A stretch of 56,522 nucleotides of DNA, taken from the IMG/VR virus record IMGVR_UViG_3300019360_000285, positions 1-56,522 of that record; one strand, written 5' to 3'. This DNA comes from a virus. Position 1 is the stretch's first letter, and the number at the start of each line of letters is the position of its first letter. This document shows positions 48,366 through 56,522 of the stretch, piece after piece. The position numbers and the translations under genes were made by a program. The notes under the pieces were generated by a model. The model was not told the DNA's origin, searched no databases, and was given only the letters and a program-made list of their open reading frames with translations.

Positions 48366-49358
48366 TTATGTGTCTCGCTTCAGTATCGAAGGCATCACAA
48401 GGTCCACAAAGTTCGGGCCTGCTGCCTCGAACCGCCCGAGAGATACGAGCGAGTCTTTACAACCAATTTGGTAGTCAAATGAAATCCCTGAGTCAGTGAT
48501 GTTTCTGCCGTCGTGCTCCCACGATCGAGTGAACCAGCGCTCGAGCTTGACTCTGAGTACTAGCGTCGGGATCGCGAGCCCGGGATGCACTACGGTATCT
48601 GATCGGCCGTTCAATAATAACCAGTCATGGGAGGGCGTTTGCATAAAGGGCGTTACGGGTGATGGTGGGGCATGGCAGCCGGCCCAATTGGCGACTCCGA
48701 CGTAAGGATAGAGTGCGGTCACGGAAGATTCGTTGATCAAGCCCAATGTGACGTTGATCGACAGTGCCCGTTTGTCATCATGCTGCGTATATCCACCATC
48801 GCGCACATTCAGCACTCTCATGCCAAGCTTGGCGACGGACAAACGTTTGAACGCATCCTCGACGTCATAGTGCTCCATTATGAATGTCTGATCGCCCGCT
48901 CGTTTCCAGTAGTGCTTGTCGTCCTTTGCCTCTGACATATGCGGTCGCCGTTCCGACCGTTCTATCCAGATCGCGAGATAGCCGACGTCGGGACTCGGGC
49001 CCGGAATAGCCACGACTTCTATCCCGTCATGGGTGGGTGACAGCAATTCGCCGACAGCTCGGGTCACTTCTGACTTGAATCTTCGAAGCTCACTTATGGG
49101 TGCCGGTGCTGATGCAGCGTCAATATTGTCCGTGTCCCTTTTGGCAACGACGCCGTAGATCAATAGGCCACCCATGGAGTTGGCCATGGCGCTCAGCGCA
49201 CGCCCCAGCACCTGTCGGTCCACTCGATTTAGGCCACCTGAGCTGGCATCCGTTTTTTCCTTGAAGTCGAGTTGCACGCCTTCCTGAGCCCTGGCTGCGA
49301 CTAACTCGGCAATGACCGACGCGCCCTCGCTTTTCAGCTGCTCAAAGATATGTCGCAT
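48366..49358 (-). CDS. AlbA/Schlafen-type DNA-binding protein
   Basis: A 330-residue protein in more A+T-rich DNA than the phage. The N-terminal AlbA_2 (Schlafen core) domain reads VQLDFKEKTD, ALSAMANSMGGLLIYGVVAK and VGYLAIWIERSERRPHM, with HYWKRAGDQTFIM after it. Such domains occur in defence- and regulation-linked proteins and bind nucleic acid. The C-terminal half is not assigned. I start it at the ATG at 49356-49358, just below a palindromic operator. It points back toward the lysis genes and is convergent with them. Confidence 0.8.
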   Translation of the reverse strand: MRHIFEQLKSEGASVIAELVAARAQEGVQLDFKEKTDASSGGLNRVDRQVLGRALSAMANSMGGLLIYGVVAKRDTDNIDAASAPAPISELRRFKSEVTRAVGELLSPTHDGIEVVAIPGPSPDVGYLAIWIERSERRPHMSEAKDDKHYWKRAGDQTFIMEHYDVEDAFKRLSVAKLGMRVLNVRDGGYTQHDDKRALSINVTLGLINESSVTALYPYVGVANWAGCHAPPSPVTPFMQTPSHDWLLLNGRSDTVVHPGLAIPTLVLRVKLERWFTRSWEHDGRNITDSGISFDYQIGCKDSLVSLGRFEAAGPNFVDLVMPSILKRDT

Positions 49359-49373
49359 GATTGAGGATACCCG

Positions 49374-49389
49374 GAAAGTTTTAACTTTC
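49374..49389. promoter_or_regulatory. Palindromic operator candidate
   Basis: GAAAGTT-TT-AACTTTC, a 16-bp inverted repeat 16 bp upstream of the AlbA-type gene and 160 bp upstream of the divergent cassette. It could serve autoregulation by the XRE protein encoded nearby. Confidence 0.55.
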
Positions 49390-49548
49390 ACGCTCTGAAT
49401 CACGTCTAACCCATCCCAAAGGCTAGACTTTTCGGTCTCCAGTTCAGTACGCCAGCTCGCATTTTTGCCCAGAAGAGAATGCGCGTGTTTCCCAACTGTT
49501 GGTAGAATTAGCGATTGCCTGCTTGTAGAACTGGGATTATTGACTTAT

Positions 49549-50070
49549 ATGTCAATGCGCGAGGAGATCAGGGCGCGATGCACTGAGGGTCGTCTCATGT
49601 GCCTCCCGCACTCGATTCCTAGCCAAGCAGCGGTGAGGACTGTGTTTGTGGCTTCCGACATATGGGGAGACATCAATCCACCCTGGCCGCAGACTACGGA
49701 CGCCGTCCGACTTGCTGGGCTCCGTGCCTACCTTGATCTTTTCACGGAAGGAATGCGGATCAGCATTGGCGACCATCCTTTCCGCAAAGCAAGAACCGCG
49801 GTCATGGCGCGCGTTGATCCAGCAGCCGATGAATTCTTTGACTTTCGCTGCATCGATCCAAAGCCTGGCATTCGCGCGTTTGGCGCATTCTCGGAGGTTG
49901 ACGTCTTCATCGTGTTAACCTGGGCGTTTCGAGAACAGCTCGATACCGATCGAAAGTGGGATGCAGAAATCAACCGGTGTAAGGCGAAATGGCGAGTGTT
50001 GTTCTACACCTACCGACCGCACCACGGAGCGGACCTTCATGACTACGCCTCCAACATCATTGTTGTCTGA
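49549..50070 (+). CDS. Hypothetical protein, first gene of XRE cassette
   Basis: A 173-residue protein starting at ATG 49549 or 49555. Its middle has GDINPPWPQTTDAVRLAGLR and MRISIGDHPFRKARTAVMAR; it ends HDYASNIIVV. It has no signal peptide or known catalytic motif I can recognise. Its last 32 bp overlap the XRE gene, indicating translational coupling. Confidence 0.65.
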   Translation: MSMREEIRARCTEGRLMCLPHSIPSQAAVRTVFVASDIWGDINPPWPQTTDAVRLAGLRAYLDLFTEGMRISIGDHPFRKARTAVMARVDPAADEFFDFRCIDPKPGIRAFGAFSEVDVFIVLTWAFREQLDTDRKWDAEINRCKAKWRVLFYTYRPHHGADLHDYASNIIVV

Positions 50071-50545
50071 ACCAGCAGGAGCCGAGAGGGTACCACTAGG
50101 GACGCTTGCCTATTTTCGAGCGCGGAGTAGGGGCCGTGTGTACGATCTCGTTGTCGGCGAGTTTGTCCGGAGCGGTCTATCTCAGGCAGATTTGGCGCGT
50201 CGCCTTGGTAAGGGTCCCGACGTGATCTGTAGATGGCTAGGATCTCCCGGGAATTGGAGCCTCGACACTGTCAGTGATCTCTTGTTTGCGATTTCTGGTG
50301 CTGAACCCACGCTTGGCGTGCGCTACCCTCTTAAGGAAGCGCGCAAAAACTACGATCGTCCAGAATGGCTCGAGTCTTCTAGCGTACTCTCGCTGGAGAG
50401 TGAGCCTAGAACAGCCAACACTGCTACCGTCTCTACTCCACTAAGAACGTTGGGAGGTTATGAGGCCAGACCGGCTTTTGCCGTTTTTGAGCTTTTCGGC
50501 AAGACGGAAGGTCATAGCCAGCATTCATCGAGCAGCCAGCGATGA
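50039..50545 (+). CDS. XRE-type HTH protein
   Basis: A 168-residue protein. The helix-turn-helix is FVRSGLSQADLARRLGKGPD, then VICRWLGSPGNWSLDTVSDL. The tail is Ser/Thr-rich and disordered. It overlaps genes on both sides, so the three form an operon. It probably represses its own operon, perhaps through 49374-49389. Toxin-antitoxin-like or defence regulation is possible, but not shown. Confidence 0.78.
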   Translation: MTTPPTSLLSEPAGAERVPLGTLAYFRARSRGRVYDLVVGEFVRSGLSQADLARRLGKGPDVICRWLGSPGNWSLDTVSDLLFAISGAEPTLGVRYPLKEARKNYDRPEWLESSSVLSLESEPRTANTATVSTPLRTLGGYEARPAFAVFELFGKTEGHSQHSSSSQR

Positions 50546-51198
50546 ACCTAGGTAGCATCCTATTGAGCAAGTGCCTGCGTGCCTTTAAGGGTGGCGGGCA
50601 CGACGTCAGGGCAAGTATGTACTTGCCAACTCTCTCAAAGGTCTTTCAGGAGCGGTATGGCTTCTTCCAAGGTCCGAGAACTGTGGAGGAATTTGATCTT
50701 CAGAAGGGAGTTGTTTACCTACACGGTCAGTTTGACGGGTTCGTGATCGACCAGTGCACTGTGTACGCCGAGGGCGTAGGCTGTGAAGGCCGAGTCGGCA
50801 CTGAAGACTTAGATCGATTTGTCGATGACGCAGTCAAATGGGTTCATGAAATAGCCAAAGTGCCTCCTTCAGTTGAACTAGGCAGAGGCTACGAAAGCCG
50901 CCTAGAGGTTTCAATGGACGTCGCTATCAACCATACCTTTGATCGTTTTGCTGAATTTGGACGAAGTGTTACGGCCTCAGTTAGACGTGGCAACAGGCCA
51001 TCACCTGATTTCGAATTGTCCGGTCTCATCTTTCACGGCGATCCGATCTTAGTAGGTGGTCAGCGGCCGCTCCCCTTCACCATTGAACGCAGGGCAGGGA
51101 AGCCCTACGGGGATAATGTGTATTTTTCGGAAGCCGCCCTCAGTACCGGGGATCACCTGCGGCATTTGGCGGAACTCGAAGTTTTGTTGAAGGGCTGA
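50542..51198 (+). CDS. Hypothetical protein paired with the XRE protein
   Basis: A 218-residue protein, MNLGSILLSKCLRAFKGGGH, FQERYGFFQGPRTVEEFDLQ, VSMDVAINHTFDRFAEFGRS. Beta-strand-rich C-terminal half (SGLIFHGDPILVGGQRPLPF). The 4-bp overlap with the XRE gene argues for a functional pair. I know no family for it. Confidence 0.7.
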   Translation: MNLGSILLSKCLRAFKGGGHDVRASMYLPTLSKVFQERYGFFQGPRTVEEFDLQKGVVYLHGQFDGFVIDQCTVYAEGVGCEGRVGTEDLDRFVDDAVKWVHEIAKVPPSVELGRGYESRLEVSMDVAINHTFDRFAEFGRSVTASVRRGNRPSPDFELSGLIFHGDPILVGGQRPLPFTIERRAGKPYGDNVYFSEAALSTGDHLRHLAELEVLLKG

Positions 51199-51253: not shown

Positions 51254-51726
51254 TCACTTTCTTCTTCGCTGTTTGGTCGACGGCCGTTCTGGCTTGACTT
51301 CCGCAGCCGCCTTGTCTTCACGAATGCCGCGATAGCTCGGCGCCCGTACCATTCCCGCGACGGTCATCTCAGTGAACGCGACCTGCACGACGATGCCAGG
51401 CTTGATCCAGTGTGCCTTGCGCCGGATCGGCGCTGGCATCTGGCGGGCGATGGGTGAGGTCTCCGAGGCCAGCGGTCGGAACAGGTCGACCAGGCGCCGG
51501 CGCTCTGCCACGGTGAAGCCCGTCCCGACATGGCCAGAATAGCGCAAGCCGCCCTTGTCGTTGACGGCCAGGATCAGTGACGCGAAGGCCATGTGGCGGG
51601 CATCCGATTCGGTGTAGCCCGCGACGACGAACTCTTGCTCCTGGCTGCACTTCACCTTGACCCAGTCGGTGCCGCGGCCCGCGCGGTAGGGCTTGTCGGC
51701 GCGCTTTGCGATGACACCCTCGAACC
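51254..51726 (-). pseudogene. ligD: 3' part of split ATP-dependent DNA ligase gene
   Basis: C-terminal part of a LigD-type ligase. It begins, after the target duplication, with RFEGVIAKRADKPYRAGRGT (ligase motif IV region, then motif V DWVKVKC) and the OB-fold (FASLILAVNDKGGLRYSGHV). It joins exactly in frame to the 5' part at 56016-56522 if the transposon and one copy of CTCGAACC are removed. As it stands it has no start of its own. Confidence 0.88.
51719..51726. repeat. Target site duplication, left copy
   Basis: CTCGAACC, identical to 56016-56023. An 8-bp duplication is what the IS1595 family makes on insertion. Confidence 0.92.
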
Positions 51727-51750
51727 GGGAAGTATATACTTGACAACGGA
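51727..51750 (+). repeat. Left terminal inverted repeat
   Basis: 24 bp, starting GGGAAGTATATACTTGACAA and ending CGGA. It contains the palindrome AGTATATACT and a TTGACA promoter box pointing inward. Confidence 0.93.
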
Positions 51751-51768
51751 AGCCGGGCGGGCCATAAG
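51740..51768 (+). promoter_or_regulatory. Transposase promoter, -35 inside the terminal repeat
   Basis: TTGACA at 51740-51745, 17-bp spacer, CATAAG at 51763-51768, then AGAGGGG seven bases before the transposase ATG at 51791. Transposase bound to the end would cover the -35 and repress itself. Confidence 0.65.
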
Positions 51769-51790
51769 TTAGCTCCAAGAGGGGCACACT

Positions 51791-52717
51791 ATGGCACAGG
51801 CCGATATCCAGAACGCAGCCTTTACCGACGAAACCACGGCGCGCGAAGCGCTTGAGATGGTTCGTTGGCCGAACGGCCCGGTCTGCCCGCATTGCGGCAA
51901 CCTCGACCAATCAAAGATCGCGAAGGGACAGGGCGCCGCCAGTCGGCCGGGCCTGTACTACTGCGCATCCTGCAACGGGCAGTTCACTGTCACGGTTGGC
52001 ACCGTCATGGAGCGCAGCAAGATACCGCTGACCAAGTGGCTGCTGGCGATGCACCTGATGGGCGCGAGCAAGAAGGGCATGAGCGCTCTTCAGCTTCAGC
52101 GCATGCTGGGTGTCACCTATAAGACCGCCTGGTTCCTCTGCCATCGCATCCGTGAAGCCATGACGCCGCCGGCGCGCGGCCCGCTTGGTGGCGAGGGGAA
52201 GATTGTTGAAGCGGACGAGACCTACATCGGCGGCAAGGAATACAACAAGCACAAGAGCAAGCGGAACTCCAAGAACATCGGCGGCATGGGAAAGAAGATC
52301 GTGTTTGCTCTGACCGAGCGCGATGGTGAGTCACGCTCGTTCCGCGTCGCCAACGTGTCGAGCGCTACCCTGCGCCCGGTTATGACGGCGCAGATCGACA
52401 AGGCAACGAAGCTGATGACAGACGACGCCGGTCAGTACCGGAGCATGGGTAAGCACTTCGCCCATGAGGTCGTGAATCACTCGATTGACGAGTACGTGCG
52501 CGGCGACGCTCACACCAATACGGCAGAGAGCCGGTTTGCGCTGATGAAGCGCGCCGTCTACGGCACCCATCATTCGATCAGCGAAGCCCACCTCGCGCGC
52601 TATCTCGCGGAATGGGACTTCAAGTGGAACACCCGCAAGGTGAAGGACGGGGAACGTGCGACGCTTATAACCAAGGGTATCGAAGGCAAGCGCCTCACGT
52701 ATCGACCTGTTAACTGA
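51791..52717 (+). CDS. IS1595-family (ISXO2-like) transposase
   Basis: A 308-residue transposase. An N-terminal zinc ribbon has Cys32/Cys35 (CPHCG) and Cys58/Cys61 (YCASCNG), followed by a helix-turn-helix (MSALQLQRMLGVTYKTAWFL). The DDE-type core has Asp142 (VEADETYIGG), Asp211 or 212 (LMTDDAGQY), and the DDNK-type third element at Asn243...Lys253 (HTNTAESRFALMKR), then HHSISEAHLARYLAEWDF. Full length for the family, so probably active. Confidence 0.94.
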   Translation: MAQADIQNAAFTDETTAREALEMVRWPNGPVCPHCGNLDQSKIAKGQGAASRPGLYYCASCNGQFTVTVGTVMERSKIPLTKWLLAMHLMGASKKGMSALQLQRMLGVTYKTAWFLCHRIREAMTPPARGPLGGEGKIVEADETYIGGKEYNKHKSKRNSKNIGGMGKKIVFALTERDGESRSFRVANVSSATLRPVMTAQIDKATKLMTDDAGQYRSMGKHFAHEVVNHSIDEYVRGDAHTNTAESRFALMKRAVYGTHHSISEAHLARYLAEWDFKWNTRKVKDGERATLITKGIEGKRLTYRPVN

Positions 52718-52801
52718 GATCACGACTCGCGGACAGTTTTTGAAGCGGTACGCGGCTTGGCGGAAGCGGCGTGGTTTGTAGGGTGGACTACGTCCGTCGT
52801 C

Positions 52802-53032
52802 CTAGAAGCACCTAGTGTCGATCATTGGGACCGGCCCGCGGCTGAACGCCTTGGCCTTGGCGAGCGCCGCCTCGCGATGTTCGCGCGTCCGATCTCCCAG
52901 CATGGCCAGCGCGGACCCCGCTACGTCATAGCGCCCGCAGTGCGGGCAGCGAATCTGCTTCCCGTCATAGCCGCCGTCTGTGACGTCTTCTGCCTCAGAG
53001 TGTTCGCAGACCGGGCACGTAACTTTAGGCAT
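52802..53032 (-). CDS. Zinc-ribbon passenger protein
   Basis: A 76-residue protein: VTCPVCEHSEAEDVTDGGYD, IRCPHCGRYDVAG. Two CxxC knuckles form a zinc ribbon, and the rest is helical. It is the last of the leftward passenger genes and ends 84 bp from the transposase stop. Function unknown. Confidence 0.65.
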   Translation of the reverse strand: MPKVTCPVCEHSEAEDVTDGGYDGKQIRCPHCGRYDVAGSALAMLGDRTREHREAALAKAKAFSRGPVPMIDTRCF

Positions 53033-53052
53033 TGGGTTTGCTCGTCCTTCAT

Positions 53053-53472
53053 CTACGCTCGAGGATATCGCTCCCGGTGCTCGCGCTCCCGTTTTTGCAT
53101 GACTTCAAGTAGCGGCACTCCAAGCATCTTTGCCTCCCGAGCATCGGTGCGGTGCCAAGTGGCAATGCCATCTGGCTCAAAAAACGTCGCCTCTAGAATT
53201 CGGCCATAGGTTATTTCTACAAGAAACCCCACCCTTTGAGCGCCCGTGCGATTGACCGTCCCCACCACGATCATAGTTCCGCCCGCGCTCATGAGTGCTT
53301 GGTCTTCATAGGAACCAAAGGTCGCTGTCTGAAAGTCCAAGCCGTTTTCCTGGAACCAAGGTTCGATACCATCCATTGCGGAAAACGCACGGACTGTCTT
53401 CCTGCCCCGTCTCCATCGGGCAATCAACCAAATCGCAGCAATTGCTGCACCTGCAATCCAAACGATCTCCAT
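53053..53472 (-). CDS. Membrane-anchored passenger protein
   Basis: A 139-residue protein with an N-terminal membrane helix (EIVWIAGAAIAAIWLIARW) and a basic juxtamembrane turn, then a soluble domain (MIVVGTVNRTGAQRVGFLVE, GIATWHRTDAREAKMLGVPL). Unknown family. The soluble part should be cytoplasmic by the positive-inside rule. Confidence 0.65.
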   Translation of the reverse strand: MEIVWIAGAAIAAIWLIARWRRGRKTVRAFSAMDGIEPWFQENGLDFQTATFGSYEDQALMSAGGTMIVVGTVNRTGAQRVGFLVEITYGRILEATFFEPDGIATWHRTDAREAKMLGVPLLEVMQKREREHRERYPRA

Positions 53473-53520
53473 TCTCGCCCCCCCCAGAAAAGCGCAGGGC
53501 AGGTCACGTCTCGCGCGAAT

Positions 53521-53670
53521 CTACCTCCGCCTCTTTGCCTTCGCCGCGCGCTTCGCAGGCGTCGTCTTCACCGGCGCCTTCATTTCGCCATGTGGCTTCG
53601 GCGGCATCGCGAGTACTCTCTTCATGACGCGGACCGTAGCGTCGTCTAGGTCGGGCTTTTTGGGAGTCAT
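53521..53670 (-). CDS. Small basic passenger protein
   Basis: A 49-residue basic protein, MTPKKPDLDDATVRVMKRVL, AMPPKPHGEMK, with a Lys/Arg/Ala-rich end. Its ATG shares bases with the methyltransferase stop (ATGA), so it is in the same operon. Similar short 'MPPKPHGEMK' proteins are common uncharacterised alphaproteobacterial proteins. Confidence 0.65.
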   Translation of the reverse strand: MTPKKPDLDDATVRVMKRVLAMPPKPHGEMKAPVKTTPAKRAAKAKRRR

Positions 53671-54623
53671 CAGGCTGCCATCCTTACTTTGCCGATTTGC
53701 TCGACTGGTCCCACAAGGCTCGGGATTGTCAGGCCGGGCGAGAAAAACATAACCTCCTTGCCGCTGTACCGATCTCGGGCCGTATACCCCACATTGTAGG
53801 CGAGACTGCGGAAGCCGGCATAGAGTTTCCTGATCTCCGGGGCGTTGTCGTAGGAAACAAGCCAGCGACGGTCCGTCATCTTCGATGCGATGAACGCCGC
53901 TATGTCCGCGTGATCCTTGGCCTTGTAGTAATCGTAGTAGAGTTGGCGTCCCTGCTCAAAGTATGGCGGGTCAAGGTAAACGAGCGATTTTTTGGGCCAC
54001 TTCGGGAGCCCGAATTTCAGGAAGGCGATGGCGTCACTGTGGGTAAGCTTTATACGTCCCTTCATTCGAGCGATCGACTCGATCCTAAAGATCAATTCGT
54101 CAGCGTTGTAGCGAGCATCAATCTTCCATGGCCCCGACTGGTCACGCCCGCCGATAACGCCGCCGTTCAGGATGCCGGACCGATTGGTGCGGTTTAGAAA
54201 GAACGTCGCGAAACCAACGCTGACGTGGTCATGATCCTTAGGATTCATGAAGACCTTCTTCTGCCTGTCCCATGCGGCAACAGTCAGGCGGGTGTTCTTC
54301 ACTCTCCTGCACAACTCGTCAGTGTCGTTGAGAACGCTTTTCCAGAACGAATAGACGTGGTGGCTAACGTCGTTGATTCGGATTTGCGATACGTACTCTT
54401 GGAACAGCAACTCAAGCGCGATGGCCGCCCCGCCCGCATAGGGCTCGATGTACTCGCCGTCATCCAATCCGTTGTCCCGGATGATCCGCTTGACGTACGC
54501 CGCTAGCTTGCCCTTGCCCCCTGGATACCTCAGCGGCGTGAAGTGGACGAGCCTTCTGGGCTCCCCTTCGCTCGCGTCCTTCACGGCCAGATGCACTCGA
54601 AAAGCGGCTGAGCATGGTCCCAT
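53670..54623 (-). CDS. Dam-type (D12 class) adenine-N6 DNA methyltransferase
   Basis: A protein of up to 317 residues. Motif X/I: FTPLRYPGGKGKLAAYVKRI; SAM-binding EPYAGGAAIALELLF; motif IV LVYLDPPYFEQG. Also NRTNRSGILNGGVIGGRDQSG, typical of the D12 class. It should methylate adenine at a short target such as GATC-like sites, but the target cannot be read from sequence. It overlaps the ParB-like gene by 43 bp if the first ATG is used, so the two are translated together. Confidence 0.9.
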   Translation of the reverse strand: MGPCSAAFRVHLAVKDASEGEPRRLVHFTPLRYPGGKGKLAAYVKRIIRDNGLDDGEYIEPYAGGAAIALELLFQEYVSQIRINDVSHHVYSFWKSVLNDTDELCRRVKNTRLTVAAWDRQKKVFMNPKDHDHVSVGFATFFLNRTNRSGILNGGVIGGRDQSGPWKIDARYNADELIFRIESIARMKGRIKLTHSDAIAFLKFGLPKWPKKSLVYLDPPYFEQGRQLYYDYYKAKDHADIAAFIASKMTDRRWLVSYDNAPEIRKLYAGFRSLAYNVGYTARDRYSGKEVMFFSPGLTIPSLVGPVEQIGKVRMAA

Positions 54624-55936
54624 GCTGCCATCAGATCGCGCGGCACCGGCGTTTGGTATTGATCATGGACGTATCGGTGAAGTAGGTCGGCGTGCATTGG
54701 GCTGTTCCTTGAGGTCACGGCGCGAGTGATCGCCTTGAACTTCGCTTGCGACACGCCAACGTTTACCACCACGGCCACTACCTCGGCCAGCTTCTCGTCC
54801 AGTGTTTTCCACTTCGGGCGGCTCGCCCCCGGCGGGGTGAAGTCCAGCTGTCCTCCGCTCTTCACAAGGAAATAGTCGACCGACAGTTCAAGGAACACGC
54901 GCAGAAGGACCGCTATAGCGTTCGGTGCATCGTCTAGTTCCAACTCTCGAAGTTCCTTGTAGATGTCCGCGATCCGATTCTGAGTGACGTTCAGCCTGCA
55001 GGTGCGGGGGACGACTTTCTTTCTGTCGCTCGGATCGGGCTGCCGGCGCACCCGCTTGGTCTGAACCTTTGTGAATTCAGAGACGGGGATCTGCGCGAGC
55101 GGGCGTTCCTTGCCGCGCGCCTTAGACATGTCGGGGAGATATGCCCCGCCAAGGTCGGTCCGAAGATATTGCAGCATATCCTCGGTCTTCATCAGGCGGT
55201 TGACGCGCGCTTGCTTCGTCGCGAGATCGAGCACGACTTTCTTTAGGGACTTCGCGACTTCGTCGGCCGGCAATTTCGTCACGAGATTGCCGGCCTTGAC
55301 GTCAAGGCCAAGCTCCCGTCGTGCGGCGCGGTTCTCGAGAAACCGCTCAAGGGTCGAAGTGGGGAACGTTTCCGTGATTGCGTTCCGCTCGGCCGAGCTA
55401 AGGCCGGAACGCTCTGTCACCAAGTCCAGCGCTTGTAGCACAATCGGCGTCCCGCCCTCAGCGCGACGCTTGGCGAGCGTCTTCCAATCCTCAATCCCGG
55501 CACCGTCGTGGCCGATGTTGTGACGAAGGTCGAGCCAGTAGTCGGCATCTTTCCGGACAGCCACTTCAAAGCAGGAAATCGGCTCGACACTGCCCTTCTT
55601 GAACTTCTTCGCCAGTCGCTCAAAGGCACGCTTCGTTGTGCCCGGCATATCCAACCCGCTCATCACAGCGGGATTGGTCAGTATCTTGAGCACCGCTATT
55701 CGCCGATTCCCCTCAAGGGAGATGAATTTCACCGGCGTCTGATTCAACCTTAGGACTAGCAGGCGGTCCATTGGATTGAGGCCGTGGTCGGTGATGCTCT
55801 CCGCGAGAGCCACCAGCTTGGCCTTCTGATCTCTGATAACCTTCTGAAGTGCATCTTGTTGACCTGTGGCAGGCGGGATGCGCGGATTGTCGTGGTCTAG
55901 AACAAAGTCATCTATCTTGAGCGCGATATCAGGCAT
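54581..55936 (-). CDS. ParB-like passenger protein
   Basis: A 451-residue protein. Residues 1-95 are a ParB/sulfiredoxin-like N-terminal domain: FVLDHDNPRIPPATGQQDAL, LVALAESITDHGLNPMDRLL and KFISLEGNRRIAVLKIL, where EGNRR corresponds to the nucleotide-binding GERR box. The long C-terminal region is unassigned and mainly helical (LLRVFLELSVDYFLVKSGGQ). It starts 56 bp from the right terminal repeat with a GGGGAGGGG ribosome site. Paired with the methyltransferase it may form a restriction- or defence-type unit; that is inference. Confidence 0.85.
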   Translation of the reverse strand: MPDIALKIDDFVLDHDNPRIPPATGQQDALQKVIRDQKAKLVALAESITDHGLNPMDRLLVLRLNQTPVKFISLEGNRRIAVLKILTNPAVMSGLDMPGTTKRAFERLAKKFKKGSVEPISCFEVAVRKDADYWLDLRHNIGHDGAGIEDWKTLAKRRAEGGTPIVLQALDLVTERSGLSSAERNAITETFPTSTLERFLENRAARRELGLDVKAGNLVTKLPADEVAKSLKKVVLDLATKQARVNRLMKTEDMLQYLRTDLGGAYLPDMSKARGKERPLAQIPVSEFTKVQTKRVRRQPDPSDRKKVVPRTCRLNVTQNRIADIYKELRELELDDAPNAIAVLLRVFLELSVDYFLVKSGGQLDFTPPGASRPKWKTLDEKLAEVVAVVVNVGVSQAKFKAITRAVTSRNSPMHADLLHRYVHDQYQTPVPRDLMAAWDHAQPLFECIWP

Positions 55937-55991
55937 CGCCCCTCCCCAAGGGGCTCCCTCAACCCCCGGTAAAGCCTAGGGATTGCGATGG

Positions 55992-56015
55992 TCCGTTGTC
56001 AAGTATATACTTCCC
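55992..56015 (-). repeat. Right terminal inverted repeat
   Basis: Exact inverted copy of the left 24-bp end (TCCGTTGTCAAGTATATACT then TCCC). It carries the same inward TTGACA box on the minus strand, which may help drive the passenger operon, though only a poor -10 (TAGGCT) follows. Confidence 0.93.
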
Positions 56016-56023
56016 CTCGAACC
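56016..56023. repeat. Target site duplication, right copy
   Basis: CTCGAACC, identical to 51719-51726 and directly after the right terminal repeat. Confidence 0.92.
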
Positions 56024-56522
56024 GCCGGCGGCATAGCGACGCGAGCAGCTTGTCGCCGTCGCGATCGACGTGGGCGCTGTAGATCACCGACGCGCTGGCG
56101 CCCCTCAGGATCGACTCGAGTCGCTTCTTTCGTTCGACCAGCGGCAGAGATCGCAGATCCTCGCCGTTCAGCGCCAGCAGATCGAAGGCGCAGAACGCGA
56201 TGCCGGCGCCGCCGCGCTTCAGAGCTTCATGCAGGGCTTCAAAGCTGGTCCGGCCCTCCTTGTCGTACACGGCCATCTCGCCATCGATCAGCGCGCCACG
56301 CAGGTTCAGGGCGGCGATCGCCGCCGGCGCCGCGCCATAGCGATGCGTCCAGTCCAGCCCGTTGCGGCTGTAGCACGTCACCGTTTTCCCGCTGGCGGCG
56401 ACCAGCGTGCGATAGCCGTCGTACTTGATCTCGTAGATCCAACCGGCCGCGGTCGGCACCTGGTCGACGAGCGTCGCGAGCTGCTGCTCGAGGAATTTGG
56501 GCGGGGCGGGGCGGCGCGCCAC
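56016..56522 (-). pseudogene. ligD: 5' part of split ATP-dependent DNA ligase gene
   Basis: N-terminal half of the LigD-type ligase domain: EIKYDGYRTLVAA holds the nucleophile lysine (motif I, KYDG), followed by SRNGLDWTHRYG, LIDGEMAVYD (motif III region) and FCAFDLLALNGEDLR. It ends RRRFEG at the transposon, where the frame runs on into the terminal repeat (KYILDNG). The 5' end may lie beyond the window: GTG at 56520-56522 is a possible start. The duplication copy 56016-56023 is included. Confidence 0.88.

Follow-up and report, generated by a model that had tools for sequence, protein, structure and literature searches.

Background

PD-lambda-5 is a two-gene anti-phage system that was found by experimental selection in E. 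coli and gives broad protection (Vassallo et al., 2022, PMC9519451). Its authors termed it a compacted restriction-modification (RM) plus abortive infection system, described the version discovered in E. coli as a prophage one, and used a test host without the mrr region, which is compatible with active foreign methylation by PD-lambda-5 (PMC9519451). The system was later annotated across many genomic islands. Here we describe a pair of genes of this type, termed A and B, in an IS1595-family transposon within the IMG/VR virus record IMGVR_UViG_3300019360_000285, the whole of which (positions 1 to 56,522; 56,522 nucleotides) is called the window below.

Both the vehicle and its cargo have described counterparts. 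The transporter insertion sequences (tISs, that is, passenger-bearing ones) MTnSag1 and tISCpe8 likewise combine an IS1595 transposase with passengers between their ends, but they are mobilizable, tISCpe8 carries lincomycin resistance, and defence cargo is not reported there (PMC5704250). Tn7-like transposons resemble the element in having immunity genes as cargo, although they are driven by large multi-gene machinery as opposed to one DDE transposase in 4 kb in the window (PMC8649781). ParB-HEPN fusions, or HEPN genes in an operon with ParB and a DNA methylase (Saro_3948 and MAE_28990), were listed as conflict systems and are likened to A by their domain types, with no link made there to IS1595 or PD-lambda-5 (Anantharaman, 2013, PMC3710099). 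A literature search covering a limited set of journals returned no relevant paper linking IS1595 with defence.

An IS1595-family element and its PD-lambda-5-type genes

The element occupies positions 51727-56015 (4,289 bp). Its two 24-bp terminal inverted repeats (TIRs) are identical at 24/24 positions and are flanked by two copies of the 8-bp target-site duplication (TSD) CTCGAACC. Both features agree with the IS1595 family, and the exact boundaries drawn in a preliminary description of the locus are borne out. The transposase, which would have inserted the element and thereby produced the duplication, matches Pfam PF12762 (1.4e-37) and PF12760 (1.4e-12) as well as NF033547 (3.3e-57), all above cut-off, as befits an IS1595 DDE transposase with a zinc ribbon; the family assignment made earlier is therefore upheld. 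All cargo genes listed earlier are present, and every one lies on the minus strand opposite the plus-strand transposase, giving a convergent layout:

51719-51726, no strand: TSD, left copy, CTCGAACC, 8 bp, from sequence
51727-51750, plus strand: left TIR, 24 bp, GGGAAGTATATACTTGACAACGGA, perfect partner of the right end, inward TTGACA at 51740-51745
51791-52717, plus strand: IS1595-family transposase, 308 amino acids (aa), zinc ribbon and DDE (ISXO2-like) domain, uninterrupted
52802-53032, minus strand: CxxC (zinc-ribbon-like) protein, 76 aa, sub-threshold family matches only
53053-53472, minus strand: protein with a hydrophobic N-terminal anchor, 139 aa, no family match
53521-53670, minus strand: small basic protein, 49 aa, PPKPHxEMK motif
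53670-54623, minus strand: B, D12-class N6-adenine DNA methyltransferase (PD-Lambda-5_B), 317 aa, DPPY at 218
54581-55936, minus strand: A, ParB/Srx-HEPN protein (PD-Lambda-5_A), 451 aa
55992-56015, minus strand: right TIR, 24 bp, reverse complement equal to GGGAAGTATATACTTGACAACGGA, inward TTGACA at 55997-56002, upstream of A
56016-56023, no strand: TSD, right copy, CTCGAACC, 8 bp, from sequence

Pfam and NCBIfam recognise the D12 methyltransferase alone among the cargo; with its PF02086 match (1.6e-18) and DPPY at 218, B has the characters of a type II RM methyltransferase. The PADLOC models were more informative: A matched PD-Lambda-5_A (PDLC03998) at 8.3e-117 over residues 5-450 of 451, and B matched PD-Lambda-5_B (PDLC04018) at 2.4e-117 over residues 27-304 of 317, the methyltransferase core. 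The D12 methyltransferase gene adjoins the A gene on the same strand, as in PD-lambda-5, and overlaps it by 43 nt. Judged from their sequences, A and B almost certainly constitute PD-lambda-5, an assignment based on the PADLOC models, which also match Mesorhizobium, Kosakonia and phage relatives; a query of E. coli with the Kosakonia pair returned ATPase-linked methyltransferases only. Both genes, their order and strand, and the strong model matches agree with the described system, whereas the window pair differs in sitting in an IS1595 element together with extra small genes (PMC9519451).

The preliminary description had taken B to have a ParB/Srx-type partner, which the domain and PADLOC matches confirm, and had read the unit as restriction-like or defensive, with which the anti-phage models agree. 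Its view that no named system has this gene set fails, because the cargo has already been described as a defence type. The defence system itself is known; what is new is the IS1595 vehicle and the fact that it recurs. The 76-aa product, described earlier as a zinc-ribbon protein, does have CxxC motifs, but its family matches all fall below threshold; it is probably an accessory passenger. On the strength of the ends and TSD, the uninterrupted transposase and cargo, the PD-lambda-5 membership and a second independent element of like content, we think it likely that the element is an IS1595-family tIS carrying the known PD-lambda-5 pair.

Recurrence of the element and of the A-B pair

The second element lies on plasmid pMspAR07d of Mesorhizobium sp. 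AR07 (L005:7890-11705), with TIRs matching at 23/24 positions and the TSD GAAAAATT. It shares the convergent layout and the 43-nt A-B overlap with the window element, to which its proteins are 74% (transposase), 51% (A), 70% (B) and 60% (small basic protein) identical. This divergence and the separate TSDs show the two elements to be distinct insertions from a single lineage. The search for the cargo in other IS1595 elements proposed earlier thus succeeded for the transposase, A, B and the small protein, which form the common core; the membrane and CxxC genes are missing from the Mesorhizobium element, where a 92-aa gene takes their place. Relatives of the 49-aa protein were found in this element and in two IS1595-containing contigs without A-B (L114 and L130), so that it goes with the vehicle and not with the defence pair; a DNA-pattern search for such relatives added none to the two IS1595-linked cases.

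The association of A with B reaches well beyond IS1595, which contradicts the second condition named earlier as a refutation, a lack of association between ParB-like and methyltransferase genes outside the element. B relatives were collected from 80 loci on viral contigs; 76 of the records had sufficient upstream sequence and were counted. A lies directly upstream of B in 34/76, and in 40 of the other 42 the place is taken by a protein with a Walker A motif that resembles PtuA, AriA or OLD ATPases. Both counts contain near-duplicate contigs, and L026 and L027 are one locus. At the last two loci, B and an A-like gene converge. A putative effector partner therefore stands beside B at 76/76 counted loci. 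No IS1595 transposase was found near the viral A-B loci in the fetched flanks of up to ~6 kb, and further A-B pairs occur on plasmids of Kosakonia, Vibrio and Burkholderia. Because the pair is so common outside IS1595, and because of the distribution of the three other cargo genes, the five-gene unit proposed earlier reduces to a two-gene system, A plus B. That one methyltransferase type is accompanied by a ParB-HEPN protein at some loci and by an OLD/PtuA-like ATPase at others suggests a modular guard with an exchangeable effector.

At L026:5893-8261, a PD-lambda-5 pair whose members share ~50% and 69% identity with A and B, respectively, is inserted among apparent phage morphogenesis genes with no IS1595. 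At the 40/76 viral loci with an ATPase (within L029-L106) and at two E. coli loci (L107:1930-4579 and L108:1924-4636), a B-type methyltransferase lies downstream of a ~580-aa OLD/PtuA/AriA-like AAA ATPase, which gave partial, generic ATPase matches only against the PADLOC models.

Domain structure of A and a proposed mechanism

The structure of A was modelled with AlphaFold2 from 26 homologues, and conservation was assessed in an alignment of 31 sequences. Two domains bear on its function:

55487-55936, minus strand: ParB-type N-terminal domain of A, residues 1-150, invariant GNRR at 76-79
54584-54991, minus strand: HEPN-fold domain of A, residues 316-451, invariant H424, near-invariant R346

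The modelled N-terminal domain matched ParB, Noc, KorB and sulfiredoxin, with a VIA-align Z of 9.6 to M. xanthus ParB; together with the invariant GNRR this points to a ParB nucleoside triphosphate-binding fold with the G-x-R-R motif. The ParB fold, and the location of A-B in a transposon, might suit a role outside defence, in which B is an epigenetic regulator and A binds DNA as a ParB-type factor that controls transposition or serves partition. We consider such a role highly improbable: the adjacent ParA of a ParB partition system is absent among the genes of the element, A-B is widespread in phages and plasmids without IS1595, and A has a HEPN domain. The partition and pure epigenetic readings were rejected on these grounds.

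In the whole-A model, the C-terminal region matched the HEPN domains of Csm6, HepT and AbiA. When this domain was folded alone (predicted local distance difference test score 93.5), nearly all matches above Z 5 were to HEPN proteins, counting ROQ and RnlA, which contain HEPN; Csm6, HEPN toxins and AF_0298 scored Z 7-8.6, far above the unrelated rows, the first unrelated fold appearing at Z 4.0. Residues N17, R19, G76-R79, H139, W151, R198 and H424 are invariant in the 31 sequences, and R346 is conserved in 30/31. Conservation of the HEPN part also bears on conventional RM, in which the ParB/Srx domain of A would nick or cut unmethylated DNA and the HEPN domain would be structural. Such proteins with DNase or nicking activity have been described, including a Bacillus cereus ParB-methylase (PMC5512222). 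We nevertheless find this account quite improbable for A, whose N-terminal domain resembles the CTP-switch ParB, whose HEPN residues are conserved as well, and which had no nuclease family match in family-library scans, a kind of scan that ParB/Srx nucleases would escape.

Our preferred account is a sensor-effector one. B would methylate host DNA at a short site that contains adenine, and the ParB-like nucleotide-binding domain of A would sense DNA without the B mark, or a phage-induced change. Sensing would switch on the HEPN domain at the C-terminus of A; this effector, probably of RNase type, would halt phage growth, perhaps via abortive infection. Of the mechanisms considered, a methyltransferase guard with a switchable HEPN effector is the likeliest, and we put it forward tentatively, at somewhat less than an even chance, with the anatomy of A in its support. 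Two findings weigh against it. No restriction endonuclease domain was detected in the family-library scans, and the canonical HEPN R-x4-6-H motif is not conserved in A (0/31 sequences have R/K at -5 or -6 from H424), which makes RNase activity uncertain.

Related IS1595 elements and their ends

We delimited 15 IS1595 elements by their ends and duplication (L012 and L119 with one duplication mismatch), a small and non-random sample. Passengers occur in 11/15, those longer than 2.2 kb, and two of these 11 carry PD-lambda-5 cargo. L125:5260-7779, with exact ends and the TSD ATAAAAAA, carries a type II RM pair consisting of an N6/N4 methyltransferase and an MvaI/BcnI-type endonuclease. L135:2619-5896 (TSD ATAAATAG) carries a DruA/Mom-like protein beside a ParB_N protein, the Mom and ParB_N matches being below cut-off, and an unassigned 185-aa protein. 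PIN-domain modules were found in L009:5915-8518 and L010:693-4105 and, by resemblance, in L123:5442-8799. Passengers of L016, L113, L117 and L139 have no assigned family.

The passenger set shared by L009, L010 and L123 combines a PIN-domain protein with an uncharacterised protein of 266-297 aa and a basic one of 46-63 aa, and is possibly a toxin-antitoxin-like module. Read by eye, single passengers in L016:8993-9583, L113:5003-5590, L130:2018-2527 and L139:3602-4264 show R-x4-H motifs (e.g. RNAYVH and RNEIAH), and these proteins are possibly HEPN-like.

The PIN proteins carried with an uncharacterised partner by these sibling elements, the typical use of HEPN and PIN effectors as toxins, and the coupling of A and B in a two-gene operon would all suit an addiction module, in which methylation by B restrains a toxic A, cells that lose the element die, and transposon maintenance comes before phage defence. 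We think this unlikely, though it deserves serious weight, since PD-lambda-5 homologues came from selection for phage defence (PMC9519451) and post-segregational killing is of little benefit to a chromosomal transposon.

At both ends of the element an inward TTGACA lies 13 bp from the tip, and -10-like hexamers at 16-18 bp exceed shuffles (3.64 vs 2.39 of 6 matches). The ends may thus hold inward-facing promoters, the left one serving the transposase and the right one the cargo operon, and an inward promoter at each end for its own genes could explain the convergent layout. It tells against this that the promoters are a consensus match, and that the tally is biased, the viral elements having been picked by a TTGACA-containing pattern, which leaves the window element and the plasmid ones as the sole unbiased cases for TTGACA.

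That an unusual vehicle recurs elsewhere suggests that small IS1595 transposons spread compact immunity genes. A lineage of small IS1595 transposons with promoter-bearing ends (GGSRANTATATACTTGACA) may even be a general carrier of compact anti-phage modules, that is, a class of minimal defence transposons, its modules being PD-lambda-5, type II RM, DruA/Mom-like plus ParB, PIN modules and several uncharacterised proteins; we regard this as possible but on the doubtful side. Defence systems are usually discovered because they cluster within large islands. Should IS1595 elements of 2-4 kb, with exact ends and promoters of their own, carry them singly, immunity genes would have a simple way of hopping between replicons, and unknown ones could be found by their element boundaries, minable through GGSRANTATATACTTGACA.

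Insertion site and surroundings

A self-search found no third copy of the element end in the record. Near-identical copies of the element were found neither in plasmids nor, by an exact-TIR search, in viral contigs, and one scan of genome contigs for relatives gave a single distant match. The insertion splits a ligD-type ATP-dependent DNA ligase gene of the host:

51254-51726, minus strand: host ligD-type DNA ligase, C-terminal part, severed by the insertion
56024-56522, minus strand: host ligD-type DNA ligase, N-terminal part, extending past the record end

Removal of the element and one TSD copy in silico rejoins the two parts into a single open frame, 323 aa or longer, which matches the middle and C-terminal domains of ATP-dependent DNA ligases. 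Relatives of this ligase point to a putative alphaproteobacterial host. The contig, from a virus collection, contains a tailed prophage with terminase, portal, tape measure and endolysin genes, and the transposon lies past the phage genes, within apparent host DNA. After the prophage lysis region, at 49961-51198, are two overlapping genes, one for a helix-turn-helix-like protein with a weak PDC-M64C match and the other for a 218-aa protein without assignment. Near the prophage end, at 48366-49403 on the minus strand, lies a gene for a Schlafen/AlbA_2 domain protein.

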